Below, piece by piece: positions 4,628 to 46,896 of a stretch of DNA of 64,000 nucleotides (positions are counted from its first letter, which is position 1; every line of letters begins with the position of its first letter). The DNA comes from Rhodoblastus sphagnicola (GTDB taxonomy: Bacteria; Pseudomonadota; Alphaproteobacteria; Rhizobiales; Beijerinckiaceae), in the NCBI RefSeq assembly GCF_002937075.1, contig NZ_NHSJ01000087.1, positions 62,001 through 126,000 on the forward strand, read 5' to 3'. A program made the position numbers and the translations under genes. The notes under the pieces were generated by a model. The model searched no databases. It had not been told where the DNA came from and was given only the letters and a program-made list of their open reading frames with translations.

Positions 4628-4759
4628 ATGGCTGATGTACTTACCCCGGAGCAATCCGAAGAGCTTCACAAGCATGTCATCGACGGAACCCGCGTGTTCT
4701 TCGTGATCGCGATCTTCGCGCACGTCCTCGCGTTCGCTTTCTCTCCCTGGCTGCATTGA
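4628..4759 (+). CDS. pucB: LH2-type light-harvesting beta polypeptide
   Basis: 43-residue antenna beta chain: a polar N-terminus with [13 protein letters not shown], one membrane helix, the bacteriochlorophyll-ligand His in the FAHVLAF segment, and a C-terminal SPWLH. It pairs with the alpha chain to bind B800 and the ring BChl a, in the intracytoplasmic membrane. Start ATG 4628 follows GAGAGGTG. The core is nearly identical to the second beta chain at 43.5 kb but has a shorter N-terminus. It is followed after 12 bases by pucA. Confidence 0.95.
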
Positions 4760-4771
4760 GGAGTTTCTGAT

Positions 4772-4990
4772 ATGAACCAAGGCAAGATTTGGACTGTCGT
4801 CAACCCGAGCGTCGGCCTGCCGCTGCTGCTGGGCTCCGTGGCCGTGACCGCTCTGCTGGTCCACTACGCCGTTCTGACGCACACCACCTGGGTCGCCGCG
4901 TATTTCCAGGGCGGAACCAAGAAGGCTGCCGCTGTCGAGCACATGCAGGCTCCGGTTGCTTCCCTGCCGAGCAACGTCTCCGTCAACTGA
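4772..4990 (+). CDS. pucA: LH2/LH3-type light-harvesting alpha polypeptide, Trp45-to-Phe variant
   Basis: 72-residue alpha chain with the [10 protein letters not shown] start (Met1 is the B800 ligand in this family) and the ring BChl ligand His31. The residues that H-bond the C3-acetyl groups are Tyr44 and Phe45 (AYFQGG) instead of the standard Tyr44-Trp45. The following TTWVAA and the upstream HYAVLTH resemble B800-820 (LH3) alpha chains as I remember them. Replacement at 44/45 is known to blue-shift absorption. The C-terminal tail is longer than usual (about 20 extra residues). Ribosome site GAGGAG precedes ATG 4772. Confidence 0.93.
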
Positions 4991-41628: not shown

Positions 41629-43035
41629 TCACGCGGAGGTTTGCGGGGCAGCCGCGCGCGGCGCGCGGCGCAGCAGCGGAAACATCACCACGATGGCGCA
41701 CAGCAGAAACACGATTTCAAGGCTGTAAACCGTGTTGTACGGCGTCGCCGCGCCAAATGGCTGCTCGATCGGCAAGCCCGCGACCACGTCGCGAATCACG
41801 CCGCCCAGCGCGATGGCTATGCCCGCCGCCGAAGCTTGAACCGCGCCCCAGGCGCCCAGCGCCAGACCGGCCTGATCGTCGGGGGCCGTTTGCATGGTCG
41901 CGGTCAGCGTGCCGTGCCCGAACAAGCCGGCGCCGAAGCCGATCAGCGCCGTGCCCAGCGCGAACAGCGCCATGGAATTGAACGGCGCGGCGAGAATGAC
42001 CGCGAGGAAGGCGGGAATCCCGACCAGGGCGCCGTAGCTGGCCATGCGGAACGGATCCGCGCCGCGGCTCAGGACGCGCGACGCCAGCGCAAAACCGAAA
42101 AGGCCGCCGATTGCGAGGGTCGCCGTCAGTTTCGTTGTTTGCCCGACGGTAAGGTGAAGAACCTGACCGCCATAGGGTTCGAGCAGGACGTCTTCCATGC
42201 TGAAGGCCATGGTGCCAAAACCGACCGCGACCAACCGACGGATGGCGCCGAGACCCGAGGTGAAATTCACCCAGGCTTCGCGGAACGATGGCAAGCGCGC
42301 GGAACTGGGCGCCCCCGACCCCGGCTTGCGCGCCTCCTGCTGCCAGACCGCGGTCACGTTGAGGATCAACGTCGCCACAGCCGCGCCCTGGATGACCTGG
42401 ATCAGGCGCGCCGGCGAAAACTCCGTCAAAAAGTAGCCGAAAACCTGCGCGCAGACGATCATGCCGAGCAGCAGCGACACATACATGAGGCCCACGACCT
42501 TGGGCTGCGACTCAGGCGGCGCCAGATCGGTGGCGAGGGCGAGGCCGACGGTCTGGATCATGTGCAGACCGGCGCCGACCAGCAGGAACGCAGCGCCTCC
42601 GCCGAGATAGCCAAGCCAGACCGGCGCGTGATTGGCATGTCCCTGGCCGGTCAGGACGAGAATCGCGAAAGGCATGATGGAGAGGCCGCCGAACTGCAGC
42701 AGCGTGCCCTTCCAGATGAAGGGAACCCGCTTCCAGCCAAGCGCCGAAGTATGGTTGTCCGAGCGAAACCCGATCAGGGCGCGCAAGGGCGCGAAGACAA
42801 GCGGCAGCGACACCATGATGCCGACCAGCGAGGCCGGCGCCCCGAGTTCGACGATCATCACGCGGTTGAGGGTTCCAACCAGCAGCACCAGCGCCATGCC
42901 GACCGAAACCTGGAACAGGGAGAGACGCAGCAGCCTCGACAGCGGCAGTTCCGGCGTGGCGGCATCCGCGAACGGCAGGTAGCGCGCGCCCCGCGCCATC
43001 CATGCGCGCATCGCCTTCTCGCTGAATCGGTTCAT
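41629..43035 (-). CDS. pucC: PucC-type antenna assembly MFS protein
   Basis: 468 residues, 12 membrane helices, BCH/PucC/LhaA family. Conserved stretches: LRLSLFQVSVGMALVLLVGTLNRVMIVELG, LRALIGFRSDNHTSALGWKRVPFIW, and DVLLEPYGGQVLHL. The family is needed for LH2 assembly, possibly as a BChl or antenna chaperone. It follows the second pucBA on the same strand after 217 bases that contain a tandem repeat and a hairpin. ATG 43035 is chosen from the conserved N-terminus; its ribosome site is weak. Confidence 0.93.
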   Translation of the reverse strand: MNRFSEKAMRAWMARGARYLPFADAATPELPLSRLLRLSLFQVSVGMALVLLVGTLNRVMIVELGAPASLVGIMVSLPLVFAPLRALIGFRSDNHTSALGWKRVPFIWKGTLLQFGGLSIMPFAILVLTGQGHANHAPVWLGYLGGGAAFLLVGAGLHMIQTVGLALATDLAPPESQPKVVGLMYVSLLLGMIVCAQVFGYFLTEFSPARLIQVIQGAAVATLILNVTAVWQQEARKPGSGAPSSARLPSFREAWVNFTSGLGAIRRLVAVGFGTMAFSMEDVLLEPYGGQVLHLTVGQTTKLTATLAIGGLFGFALASRVLSRGADPFRMASYGALVGIPAFLAVILAAPFNSMALFALGTALIGFGAGLFGHGTLTATMQTAPDDQAGLALGAWGAVQASAAGIAIALGGVIRDVVAGLPIEQPFGAATPYNTVYSLEIVFLLCAIVVMFPLLRRAPRAAAPQTSA

Positions 43036-43048
43036 GAGATGTAGACCC

Positions 43049-43084
43049 AAGTTTACGACGATTGACAAGTTTACGACGATTGAA
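43049..43084. repeat. Tandem 18-base repeat upstream of pucC
   Basis: Two adjacent copies of AAGTTTACGACGATTGAC/A, starting 14 bases upstream of the pucC ATG. Could be a protein-binding site or a simple duplication. Confidence 0.7.
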
Positions 43085-43252: not shown

Positions 43253-43438
43253 TCAGCCGAAAACGGAGGTCTCGATCGCGGCAGCCTTCTTCACGCCACC
43301 CTGCCAGTAGGCCGGGAACCATGTGGTGTGCGAGATCAGCGCAAGATGCACCAGGATCGCAATCACGGTCACGGAGCCGAGCAGCAGCGGGAGGCCAACG
43401 CTCGGGTTGACGACAGTCCAAATCTTACCTTGGTTCAT
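43253..43438 (-). CDS. pucA: LH2 light-harvesting alpha polypeptide, B850 type
   Basis: 61 residues. [10 protein letters not shown] start, ring ligand His31, and the standard Tyr44-Trp45 pair in [11 protein letters not shown], which gives B800-850 absorption. The first about 53 residues are close to the R. acidophilus B800-850 alpha chain. Only a short C-terminal tail is present ([10 protein letters not shown]), unlike the long tail of the copy at 4.8 kb. GAGGAG precedes ATG 43438. Confidence 0.95.
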
Positions 43439-43450
43439 ATCAAAGACTCC

Positions 43451-43597
43451 TCAATGCAGCCAAGGAGAGAAAGCGAACGCGAGAACGTGCGCGAAGATCG
43501 CGAGCACGAAGAACACGCGGGCGCCGTCGATGACGTGCTTGTGAAGCTCTTCGGATTCAGCTGCGGTCAAGCCCGTCAGCCCCTTTTCATCAGCCAT
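43451..43597 (-). CDS. pucB: LH2 light-harvesting beta polypeptide
   Basis: 48 residues. N-terminus [10 protein letters not shown] extends five residues beyond the copy at 4.6 kb; thereafter [19 protein letters not shown] and the membrane helix with FAHVLAF, ending SPWLH. Start ATG 43597 follows GAGAGGTGGACA, nearly the same ribosome site as the first operon. pucA follows after 12 bases. Confidence 0.95.
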
Positions 43598-43717
43598 TGT
43601 CCACCTCTCATGTAACGCCACCAGCTCCGCTCCACGCGGAAACCACGAGAAGCTTTTTTTGCCTGTGGCCAGGAGGCCCACAGCGCCCCGAGAGTCTCGT
43701 TGCGACCTGCAGGCGAC

Positions 43718-43761
43718 CGTCACTATATATTGACACTTGATACTGTCAAGCTGGTGTGACA
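43718..43761 (-). promoter_or_regulatory. pucBA promoter with two PpsR/CrtJ boxes 8 bp apart
   Basis: Box 1 (43744-43761) is a perfect TGT-N12-ACA palindrome (TGTCA ... TGACA). After exactly 8 bases, box 2 (43718-43735) is TGT-N12-ACG on the minus strand. A near-consensus promoter overlaps them: -35 TTGACA (43744-43749), 16-base spacer, -10 TATAGT (43722-43727). The leader to pucB is about 118 bases and contains a GC hairpin at 43663-43683 followed by an A-run. Confidence 0.85.
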
Positions 43762-44062
43762 TAAATTTCGACGGAACACGGCTTCTTTTCGGAACCGCTG
43801 GCGCGGCTGAGTTTTTCCTACCTTTTGGCCGGATTTCCTGGCGAAGCGGGGGCGATGCGACGGATCGTGTTGGGGCGTGGACTGCGGCTTGCCGCAAGCC
43901 GGAAGGAAAGACCCATTCCCTCAACGGGAGGGGCTGGACCGTCTGGCCCGAAGGGCGCAAACCCTTAAGGCTCAGGCATTGCGTCGAAGAAAAGCCTGTT
44001 CGTCTGGCGCCGATGCGCTTGTTCGGAAGAGTCGGAAGAGTCGGAAGAGAAGGAAGTAGCCC
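43762..44062. other. Divergent intergenic region upstream of the repeat protein
   Basis: No gene is supported. Near 43947-43976, CCCGAAGGGCGCAAACCC followed by CTCAGGCA resembles the core of glycine riboswitches, but the pairing arms are poor. At 44032-44054 the 9-mer GGAAGAGTC is repeated in tandem just before the ribosome site AAGGA of the gene at 44063. Confidence 0.4.
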
Positions 44063-45217
44063 ATGACCACCATCATCACGCGGCTATATGCCGCAGAGGA
44101 GCACGCGAACGCCGCGATCCGTGCTCTGAAGCATAGATTCGGGGATGACGAGATCAGCCTGGTTACGCGGAAAAGTGGTGGGGACATCAAGGGAAAGATC
44201 ATCAAGGGCGGCGTGAAGCCGGCCAACGCGCAAGCTTTGGCCGATAGCGTAAGCAGGGGCGGCGCGGTCGTCACCGTCCGGGCGTCCTGGGGCTTCGCGC
44301 GCGAAGCCATCAAGCATCTCGAGGCGCAAAAGCCGACCGGAGCCGGTTCGGAGCATAGCGTCAGGGCCACCGGCGCCTACAATCCGACGCCGCTCTCGAA
44401 ATTGCTGCACCTGCCGGTTCTGGAGGACTTCGGCTCCGAAATCCTGCTGCTGGATTCGGCGGCGCCGCTTTCGGAAAGCCTGAACATCCCAACGTTGCTG
44501 AACACGAAGCCCCAGGCGACGTTGATCGACAAGCCGGCCTTGCTGTCCGACAGCCTGGGCCTGCCGACGATCATTCACACCGAGCCGTTTTCGGCCCTGC
44601 TCCCGACCCAGGCCGGCGTGGCCTTGCTCGACATCGCGGCGCCGCTCTCGGACCTCCTGAACCTCCCGACGCTGCTGAACATAAAGTCCAAGGCGACGCT
44701 GATCGACGCGCCGACCTTGTTCTCCGACATCCTGAACCTGGCGACGGTCATTCGCACCAAGCCGTTTTCGTCCCTGCTCCCGAGCACGGCCGGCGTGATG
44801 CTGCTGGACATCGCGGCGCCGCTCTCGAAGCTCCTTGGTCTTCCGACGCTGATCGACTCAAAGCCCCAGGCGACCTTGATCGATGCTCCGACCTTGCTCT
44901 CCGACATCCTGAACATCGGGACCGTCATTCGCACCAAGCCGTTTTCTTCGCTGCTTCCGAGCGAGGCCGGCGTGGTGCTGCTGGATATCGCGGCGCCGCT
45001 CTCCAAGCTCCTGGGTCTTCCGACGCTGATCGACTCAAAGCCCCAGGCGACCTTGATCGATGCGCCGGCGTTGCTCTCCGACAGCCTGAACCTGCCCACG
45101 TCGATTGAAACGAAGCGGGAGGGCTTGCTGCCGTGCGGGCCGTCCAAGGTGGTCCTGCTCGACTGCCCGGATCCGATTTCCCGCCTGTTCTTCTTCCCGC
45201 TGAAGAAGCGCGACTGA
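44063..45217 (+). CDS. Tandem-repeat protein beside the puc operon, unknown function
   Basis: 384 residues. Residues 1-88 form a small alpha/beta domain ([22 protein letters not shown] ... [21 protein letters not shown]) reminiscent of stress-protein 17M/YflT-like modules. Then come four repeats of exactly 59 residues (127-185, 186-244, 245-303, 304-362) and a partial fifth. Each repeat has two half-units with the pattern LID-A-LLSD-LNLPT, for example [17 protein letters not shown] and [13 protein letters not shown]. There is no membrane segment or signal peptide. It is divergent from pucBA and faces bciA. Function unknown; a pigment- or antenna-related scaffold role is speculation from position. 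Confidence 0.85.
44441..45148. repeat. Four in-frame 177-bp coding repeats
   Basis: Units begin at 44441, 44618, 44795 and 44972. The third and fourth are most alike at the DNA level (long identical runs around CTGATCGACTCAAAGCC), indicating recent duplication. All keep the frame. Confidence 0.9.
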
Positions 45218-45284: not shown

Positions 45285-46286
45285 TCAGAAAACCGCGTGA
45301 TCGCCGCGATCCGGCGCCGCCGCGCCCGAGATCACGGACGCGTAAAAATCGTACAGCGTCTCGGAGCCCGTCGAGGGCGTGGCCTCCGCGTCGTAGCAGC
45401 CCGTTTCCGGGTTCAGCGCCAACATGGATTCGGTCGCGTAATAGCGGCCGATTCGCGCAAATTCGGCCTTTTCCGCCAATCGGGACGAGAGCGGCGCGAG
45501 AAAACCGAGCGCCCCGATGATGACGTCCATCAACGCGACCGGAACCTTTCGGAACGCGGGCTTTCGGTTGAGCAGCGAAAACAGGATTTCTCCCTGCCGC
45601 TTCGGCGTGATCGCCTCGCCGGGGCCGCCGATGGGAAGCACGCGATTCCAGCGCGACTCGTCCTCCAGGCACGAGGCCAGATAATCAGCGAGATCGTCGT
45701 CGCTGATCGGCTTGCACGCCGTCAGCGTCCCGTCGCCGAAAACCAGGAATGGCTTGCCCTGGCGCACCCGCTCGATCTGCCCCGACAGCGACTTGAAAAA
45801 CGCCGTCGGCCGCACGATGGAATATCTTACGCCCGAGTCGATCAGCGCCTTCTCGAACGCCAGTTTGGCGTGTTGGAAGGCGAGTTGCGGTTTTTGGACG
45901 CAGATGGCCGAGAGTTGCACGAAATGGCCGACGCCGGCCGCGCGCGCCGCCTCCAGCAGATTGACATGCGCCCGGTGGTCGATCGCCCAGGCGTCCTTGG
46001 GCGCGCCGGTGCGCGAGGCCATGCAGGACACCACGGCGTCGAAGCGCTCGCCCTTGAATCCGTCCGCAGCAAGCGACATCGGATTGGAAAAGTCGACGAA
46101 CCTGACTTCGGCGCCCGCGACATCGGCCGCGCCGCCGGGCCGCGGGCGCAGGAAACAGACCACCTCATGGCCGCGCCGCGCCAGCGCGCGCGCCGTCGCC
46201 CGCCCGATCGTGCCGCTGGCGCCGGCGAGGCAAATTTTCTGGGGCGAGGGTTGCGCTGTGTCGGCGCCGTCGGCCTCGGTCATCAT
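45285..46286 (-). CDS. bciA: Divinyl (proto)chlorophyllide 8-vinyl reductase, BciA type
   Basis: 333 residues, atypical SDR/NmrA-like fold. GASGTIGRATARAL for NADPH, then blocks typical of DVR/BciA: CMASRTGAPKDAWAIDH, LSAICVQKPQLAFQHAKL, YSIVRPTAFFKSL, GDGTLTACKPIS, VLPIGGPGEAITPKRQGE, and IGRYYATESML. Reduces the C8-vinyl group during bacteriochlorophyll synthesis. It is convergent with the repeat protein. ATG 46286 or 46283 is the start. Confidence 0.93.
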   Translation of the reverse strand: MMTEADGADTAQPSPQKICLAGASGTIGRATARALARRGHEVVCFLRPRPGGAADVAGAEVRFVDFSNPMSLAADGFKGERFDAVVSCMASRTGAPKDAWAIDHRAHVNLLEAARAAGVGHFVQLSAICVQKPQLAFQHAKLAFEKALIDSGVRYSIVRPTAFFKSLSGQIERVRQGKPFLVFGDGTLTACKPISDDDLADYLASCLEDESRWNRVLPIGGPGEAITPKRQGEILFSLLNRKPAFRKVPVALMDVIIGALGFLAPLSSRLAEKAEFARIGRYYATESMLALNPETGCYDAEATPSTGSETLYDFYASVISGAAAPDRGDHAVF

Positions 46287-46375: not shown

Positions 46376-46597
46376 TCAGTTGAGGCCGTTCGAGACCGTG
46401 ACGAACTTCCCATTCACCTTGGCGCCCGCGCCCGTGAGGGTGGCGATGGCGGTGACCGAGATCAGCGCCGCGATCAGCCCGTATTCGAGGGCCGTCGCGC
46501 CGGACTCGTCGCATATGAAGCGGAGCAACCCGCCCTTGAGCGTCGTCTTTTTGCGCGCGATGGACCCTTGGAGGCCTGTGCTGGGGTGGAGCGGCAT
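46376..46597 (-). CDS. Flp/Fap-type pilin subunit
   Basis: 73 residues. The Flp prepilin signature is present: a short basic leader, cleavage G/ATALEYGLIAALISV with Glu at +5, and one hydrophobic helix. ATG 46597 has AGGAAG upstream. No tad/cpa assembly genes are in the window, so it is an isolated pilin gene, between bciA and purM. Confidence 0.85.
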   Translation of the reverse strand: MPLHPSTGLQGSIARKKTTLKGGLLRFICDESGATALEYGLIAALISVTAIATLTGAGAKVNGKFVTVSNGLN

Positions 46598-46896
46598 ATC
46601 CGTACTTCCTTGTGAGACGACTTGTTCTTGAGGAAATCCATACGAGCGCCGGCTTTCCGCAACGTTATGTCCACAATGCAAAAAGGGTTTACCTGCGTTA
46701 AGCATGAGCGAGGCCAGCGCGGCCCGCCGAAACCGGTCGACGCGGCGCGCCTTGCCAGCCCCGCGCCAAGCCGCTAGAGCAGGACGCGAGAAGGCAGGCG
46801 CCGGTTGTTCGCGAAAACATCGCGAAAATAGCTGAAACTGGACTGCAATGGACGGGATCGCCCGCGCCAGCGCGGGCGCGCAAGACGAGGAGCCTC
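46598..46896. other. Divergent region between Flp pilin and purM
   Basis: No gene is supported. A GC palindrome (CGCCCGCGC / GCGCGGGCG, about 46858-46877) lies just before the purM ribosome site. A purine-responsive element was not recognised. Confidence 0.4.

Follow-up and report, generated by a model that had tools for sequence, protein, structure and literature searches.

Why should a long tandem-repeat protein be encoded back to back with the genes for the antenna polypeptides of light-harvesting complex 2 (LH2)? The question is raised by a stretch of 64,000 nucleotides of Rhodoblastus sphagnicola (assembly GCF_002937075.1, contig NZ_NHSJ01000087.1, here C87, positions 62,001 to 126,000 of the forward strand; hereafter the window), in which a gene at positions 44063-45217 diverges from pucB and pucA, the genes for LH2 beta and alpha. 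The gene, called gene X or simply X below, belongs to a genome of 5.09 Mb. With a probability of about one half, X can be read as a dedicated accessory subunit of LH2 that girdles the ring, much as the gamma polypeptide does in Rhodopseudomonas palustris. The parts of this reading differ in strength: that X is dedicated to LH2 is well supported, its location at the ring and its binding along it are what we infer, and that it ligates pigment is put forward only as something it might do.

The protein encoded by X is matched in Rhodoblastus acidophilus DSM 137 by an orthologue that is 72% identical to it over its length. The ratio of nonsynonymous to synonymous substitution rates (dN/dS) between the two is 0.34 overall, 0.22 in the N-terminal domain (N-domain) and 0.35 in the repeats; X is therefore a real gene, with purifying selection acting on its protein. 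Tandem Repeats Finder (TRF) delimits an array at 44445-45094 with a period of 177 bp (59 residues), 3.7 copies, 83% matches, 0% indels and a score of 780. When the protein is laid out in rows of 59 residues from residue 128, copies 1-3 are pairwise identical at 38-47 of 59 residues, the fourth row stays in register for about 45 residues and diverges thereafter, and a partial fifth row closes the protein. An earlier interpretation made without database searches (the sequence-only reading) had seen four repeats of exactly 59 residues, on which rows and TRF agree, the fourth copy being decayed at its end. The same interpretation had divided each repeat into two half-units. This division is a simplification: autocorrelation against shuffled sequences gives peaks at lags 59 (z = 25.4), 25 (z = 10.1) and 34 (z = 7.3), the motifs are spaced by 25 and 34 residues with three Pro/Phe-Ser motifs per 59 residues, and the half-units are superseded by a 16-residue unit found in the family as a whole (see below).

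Searches of Pfam and NCBIfam at E-values up to 1 assigned the window protein to no family, and it matched neither PF00556 (antenna alpha/beta polypeptides) nor PF11181 (YflT). A plasmid search with this protein gave no match, a scan of genome contigs with this protein alone gave R. acidophilus DSM 137 as the only match, and PHROGs returned a single chance-level match (PHROG 17138, E = 0.37). Among 31 family members (alignment A2) compared with the family libraries, matches were sub-threshold or isolated only. A pyroglutamyl-peptidase match (NF009675, E = 2.4e-5) in one of the 31 was set aside as isolated, and matches to ribosomal protein L2 (E = 0.43), internalins (E = 0.12) and PHROG 17138 as chance or compositional. 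No account of the gene was found in the accessible parts of the literature searched (including PMC5783997, PMC5069747 and PMC12700997), most subscription papers lying outside the search. As far as these libraries and this literature go, the protein is undescribed, as had been supposed.

Relatives of X were sought in genomes of the same taxonomic family, order and class. A single-protein search of 199 genomes of the family gave matches in 14; it missed two further genomes (G020 and G060) that were found later by a profile, run at this level on the genomes with light-harvesting complex (LHC) genes and on six congeners rather than on all 199. In the ten of the 14 that lie outside the window genus, X is codirectional with and downstream of pucB, pucA and pucC. 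The profile detected full-length matches in 18 of 297 genomes of the order and in 11 of 385 genomes of the class, the window genome being included in each count; the other 17 of 17 lie near pucB, pucA and pucC, and the other 10 of 10 adjoin pucBA. Matches limited to the N-domain behaved otherwise, as two that were fetched in the order draw had no pucB, pucA or pucC nearby, and three in the class draw had no adjoining pucBA. Full-length relatives were thus present in 43 alphaproteobacterial genomes, and in all 43 they stand next to LH2 genes. In 41 of 41 fetched loci the nearest pucA or pucB match lies 57-2271 bp from X, and in G020 and G060 the coordinates put X some 0.2 kb away from an LHC match. 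The order of genes is pucB-pucA-pucC-X in 22 of the 41 loci; X stands between pucBA and pucC in 9 (with a second pucBA pair between X and pucC in 2 of these), is divergent in 9 and convergent in 1. Overall it is codirectional with pucB, pucA and pucC in 31 loci and adjacent to pucC in 29 of them. This linkage, kept across three arrangements, indicates function rather than a chance neighbourhood.

Variation around these loci was also noted. In two congeners X has beside it an array of tandem pucBA pairs, three in one (L024 3-1553) and five in the other (L023 7136-9909). Short paralogues of 116-166 residues, in which the N-domain is shortened and units are few, are encoded at L035 9452-9949, L036 9869-10366, L037 9402-9749 and L038 9618-9968; none was found in the window genome, nor in four congeners that lack LHC genes. 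Genome G330 encodes, besides its puc-linked copy, a second short protein (L087 1183-1626, minus strand) that ends in two family-like units.

That presence of the gene follows puc had been chosen beforehand as the point on which the sequence-only reading could be refuted. Genomes were counted as LH2-bearing if they hold at least three LHC (PF00556) matches, or if their sole LHC pair adjoins X, the latter applying to four genomes with two LHC genes only (G131, G195, G377 and G581). On this definition 48 distinct genomes are LH2-bearing (16 of the family, 21 others of the order and 11 others of the class), and X is present in 43 of them (16, 17 and 10, respectively), or in 39 of 44 when the four, whose inclusion is circular, are left out. 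A further 92 genomes (43 of the family, 35 others of the order and 14 others of the class) hold one or two LHC matches and lack X; they are referred to as carrying light-harvesting complex 1 (LH1) type genes only, a designation by count that is no proof of LH1. In none of the 92 did a profile match extend through the repeats, the best match among the 43 of the family (E = 1.1e-9) covering the N-domain only. The same division is seen in ten genomes drawn from the window genus, with X in four of four that have LHC genes and in none of six without an LHC match. Together with the position of all 43 homologues beside pucBA, these counts uphold the association with puc.

The small alpha/beta domain postulated earlier is recovered by AlphaFold2 in residues 1-90, with a predicted local distance difference test score (pLDDT) of about 95-98. 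The repeats of the window protein, in contrast, are predicted to be largely devoid of secondary structure (pLDDT 38-60 by block), apart from three short helices at PLSxxL motifs, and the model of a distant member with regular 16-residue repeats gives the same picture (repeat pLDDT 47-61). No beta-solenoid is predicted in either model, both being of low confidence in the repeats. Structural comparison of the N-domain gave a best Foldseek E-value of 0.14 and VIA-align Z scores of up to 7.7, with PII chains at about 7.0, such scores being common; the VIA-align matches reach little past residues 1-94 and barely cover the repeats. PII, AGPS and bacterial microcompartment (BMC) structures were set aside as relatives, as instances of a common fold. 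In three genomes of genus g14 with two LHC genes (G013, G111 and G133), 5-9 N-domain-like matches were found per genome, and the N-domain is therefore part of a larger multi-copy family.

The periodicity of the family is best seen beyond the N-domain. Autocorrelation after residue 95 (BLOSUM62 scoring against shuffles, Stouffer sum over 41 members) is strongest at lags 16 (z = 30.3), 32 (z = 23.9), 64 (z = 16.4) and 48 (z = 13.3), and the unit has the approximate consensus [TA]-P-[LF]-S-S-x-[LF]-G-L-P-x-L-[ST]-[KR]. Within Rhodoblastus, the peaks at 59, 25 and 34 recur in both the window protein and R. acidophilus, and lags of 50, 41, 25 and 9 are among the six strongest in two other genomes of the genus. 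The 59-residue super-repeat of Rhodoblastus may thus be composed of 16-residue units and 9-residue inserts (2 x 16 + 3 x 9). Members have between 85 and 290 residues beyond position 95; in 13 of 41 this stretch measures 95-106 residues, or about six units.

A ribbon of such units has a precedent. PMC9618040 describes a third polypeptide in the LH2 of Rps. palustris, gamma (RPA1495), as an extended, undulating ribbon lacking helix or sheet, which runs near the cytoplasmic side around six of the nine protomers and is made of six repeats, a Ser in each ligating one extra bacteriochlorophyll; a BLASTp search by the authors found it only in Rhodopseudomonas. Its gene stands three locus tags away from pucBe/pucAe, identified as RPA1491/RPA1492 in PMC5069747. 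Like X, gamma is therefore the product of a puc-tied gene. The gamma chain in the PDB (7ZCU, 7ZDI, 7ZE3, 7ZE8) has 97 residues and autocorrelation lags of 16, 32 and 48, a period shared by the X family as a whole, the window protein itself having period 59 with lags 25 and 34; the number of units is also shared, by length, with the 13 members just mentioned. Comparison of 16-column unit profiles of the X family and gamma over all cyclic shifts gave p = 0.0016 (20,000 column permutations), and in the best match G-x-P-L-[LI] falls in register, as does a Lys, more weakly. Units of both hold this core and a conserved Ser, and both polypeptides are extended rather than folded, X by prediction. The two differ in that X has an N-terminal alpha/beta domain absent from the 97-residue gamma, and in that X occurs widely in Alphaproteobacteria, gamma having been reported from Rhodopseudomonas only. 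Moreover, gamma has been seen bound on the LH2 ring, whereas the binding of X to LH2 is putative. A search of genome G000 with gamma (E up to 0.01) gave no match, and a match in G200 (E = 1.2e-4), in a repetitive stretch of a genome without LHC match, was taken as chance.

Following this precedent, the small N-domain of X would lie at the cytoplasmic surface and be followed by an extended ribbon of Pro/Ser/Leu repeats. The ribbon would run along the cytoplasmic rim of the LH2 ring, with roughly one unit to each alpha-beta protomer in the manner of gamma, and would stabilise or organise the ring. It may also hold additional bacteriochlorophyll of the B800 type, with serines or other groups as candidate ligands. 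The suggestion of the sequence-only reading, that the repeats form a scaffold binding antenna, pigment or membrane, is strengthened by the solved structure of LH2 with gamma, while it still has the standing of an interpretation.

Several observations weigh against such a subunit. The weightiest are that the PDB, which includes R. acidophilus LH2 (1NKZ), has no chain matching the X family; that seven pucBA pairs of the window genome are accompanied by a single X; that the conserved Ser is found at Pro-6 (or Pro-5) in X, and at Pro-3 (SGxPL, the Mg ligand) in gamma; and that some members would, by length, have at least 13 units, when a nonameric ring offers nine protomers. The family profile, searched against the PDB at E up to 10, retrieved chance-level chains only and missed gamma (7zcu_S), no sequence homology being detected. 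Lag 16 is outside the six strongest lags in all four Rhodoblastus members, and the unit profile compared with gamma was derived from 17 of the 41 members, hand-chosen for a strong lag-16 signal (L033, with z = 5.0 at lag 16, was omitted though qualifying). Five LH2-bearing genomes, four of genus g73 and G610, lack X: the profile, applied to their puc surroundings and whole genomes, gave N-domain-only matches in the four and none in G610, the puc surroundings of two of the five being additionally checked as lists of open reading frames (ORFs). Finally, the short paralogues in three other LH2-bearing Rhodoblastus genomes have no puc match within the fetched 20-kb stretches. Because the profile misses gamma, the Ser is shifted and X has an extra domain, X resembles gamma in kind while descent is unproven. 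We therefore do not assign X as LH2-gamma; it probably works like it.

Alternatively, X could be an assembly factor for LH2, holding alpha/beta polypeptides or bacteriochlorophyll at the membrane together with PucC and outside the finished ring. Most of the facts behind a ring subunit fit this too, and its frequent place beside pucC and in the direction of pucBAC (29 and 31 of 41 loci, respectively), the missing PDB chain and the single X for seven pucBA pairs argue for it. PucC (PF03209), a protein devoted to light-harvesting complexes, shares cluster and direction with X in the same 31 loci; it is a polytopic, transporter-like membrane protein (major facilitator superfamily match), unrelated to X in sequence. 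Yet the 16-residue register is the same as that of a structural ring subunit, and the length and periodicity of the ribbon suggest a partner that is itself periodic. In G610, G228, G334 and G383, LH2 genes and pucC occur without X, and an assembly factor would therefore be dispensable. On balance this role is unlikely, if a serious competitor. A scaffold that ties LH2 rings to each other or to the curved membrane, with neither pigment nor a register of units and protomers, is distinctly improbable: it would accommodate the variable length of the stretch after residue 95 (85 to 290 residues), a separate N-domain that could anchor or oligomerise, and the motif spacing of 25 and 34 rather than 16 in Rhodoblastus, but a single ring is the better fit for the multiples of 16 seen in most members and for units that resemble those of gamma. 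Very unlikely is homology with PucE, the 14-kDa LH2 gamma polypeptide reported for Rhodobacter capsulatus and encoded downstream of pucC; the place after pucC is indeed shared in many genomes (pucBAC-X in 22 of 41 loci), but PucE is short and is not known to contain tandem repeats. Hardly credible, and largely refuted by the co-occurrence data, is a general stress protein of the YflT type (general stress protein 17M, PF11181) lying near puc by chance, for which N-domain-only relatives in genomes without LHC genes, weak N-domain matches to YflT in six of 31 members (best E = 0.014, below the Pfam gathering cut-off) and the short paralogues that three Rhodoblastus genomes encode at a distance from puc might be cited, but which is at odds with 43 of 43 full-length X at puc, 0 of the 92 LH1-type-only genomes with X and linkage through three arrangements; YflT is not known to have either repeats or a link to puc.

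LH2 is the model for the physics of light harvesting and is treated as a ring of two polypeptides. Since X is present in 43 of the 48 LH2-bearing alphaproteobacterial genomes covered here, and stands in the window opposite a pucA whose product is closest to the 1KZU/1NKZ chain, a part may be missing from how native LH2 is modelled in pigment count, symmetry and packing. One may speculate further, as a tentative and rather doubtful extension of the ring-subunit reading, that most alphaproteobacterial LH2, that of R. acidophilus included, has in vivo an overlooked third polypeptide that detergent purification removes: a ring ribbon, with one additional bacteriochlorophyll ligated by each 16-residue unit. 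The gamma of Rps. palustris would then be a diverged or convergent case within a widespread class.

Features of gene X and its surroundings in the window (positions count from the first nucleotide of the window)
Feature	Position	Strand	Basis
Gene X, puc-linked repeat protein, 384 aa	44063..45217 incl. stop	+	ORF, ATG start
Predicted alpha/beta N-domain, residues 1-90, beta-alpha-beta-alpha-alpha-beta-alpha, ferredoxin-like/PII-like shape	44063..44332	+	AlphaFold2 pLDDT ~95-98
Repeat region, ~residues 108-350, predicted extended or disordered	44384..45112	+	autocorrelation, AlphaFold2, row layout
59-aa copy 1, residues 128-186	44444..44620	+	TRF, row layout
59-aa copy 2, residues 187-245	44621..44797	+	TRF, row layout
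59-aa copy 3, residues 246-304	44798..44974	+	TRF, row layout
59-aa copy 4, residues 305-363, last quarter diverged	44975..45151	+	TRF, row layout
C-terminal cap, near-identical in R. acidophilus	45113..45214	+	translations
pucB (LH2 beta)	43451..43597	-	PF00556 E=3.9e-8
pucA (LH2 alpha), best PDB match B800-850 alpha 1KZU/1NKZ/2FKW (E=1.1e-29)	43253..43438	-	PF00556 E=6.4e-14
pucC, start taken as ATG at 43036	41629..43036	-	PF03209 E=1.2e-151 on longer ORF
bciA-like short-chain dehydrogenase/reductase (SDR) gene, convergent with gene X	45285..46286	-	PF13460 E=7.8e-22
Divergent region common to pucB and gene X, 465 bp	43598..44062	.	position
Sigma-70-like promoter for pucBA, TTGACA-16-TATAGT	43722..43749	-	11/12 consensus matches
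TGTN12ACA site overlapping puc -35	43744..43761	+	pattern scan; same place in R. acidophilus

The immediate neighbourhood of X agrees with what had been proposed, a place between the LH2 operon and bciA: pucB, pucA and pucC are recognised by their Pfam families on the minus strand, and the SDR gene on the other side is presumably bciA. The compact photosynthesis island also proposed is a generous term for pucBAC, X and bciA; the farther neighbours have the look of housekeeping genes. The surroundings in R. acidophilus DSM 137 are identical in layout, with pucC, pucA and pucB divergent from and bciA convergent with X. Within the shared regulatory region, the TGTN12ACA site, a PpsR/CrtJ-type consensus, is of a kind that shows no excess over chance in the window (4 observed, 3.57 expected); TGTN12ACA sites are also found within the corresponding regions of two congeners, and what makes the one at 43744 suggestive is solely where it stands and that it recurs in R. 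acidophilus and these two. Three perfect 9-bp tandem copies (TCGGAAGAG) lie at 44023-44049, directly 5' of the start of X, and a perfect 18-bp tandem pair at 43048-43083, directly 5' of the likely pucC start. The window holds a second pucB/pucA pair at 4640-4939 on the plus strand. Between bciA and the next gene, a small ORF at 46376-46705 on the minus strand, putatively Flp-pilin-like, has a counterpart at the same place in R. acidophilus that is 72% identical over 74 residues.
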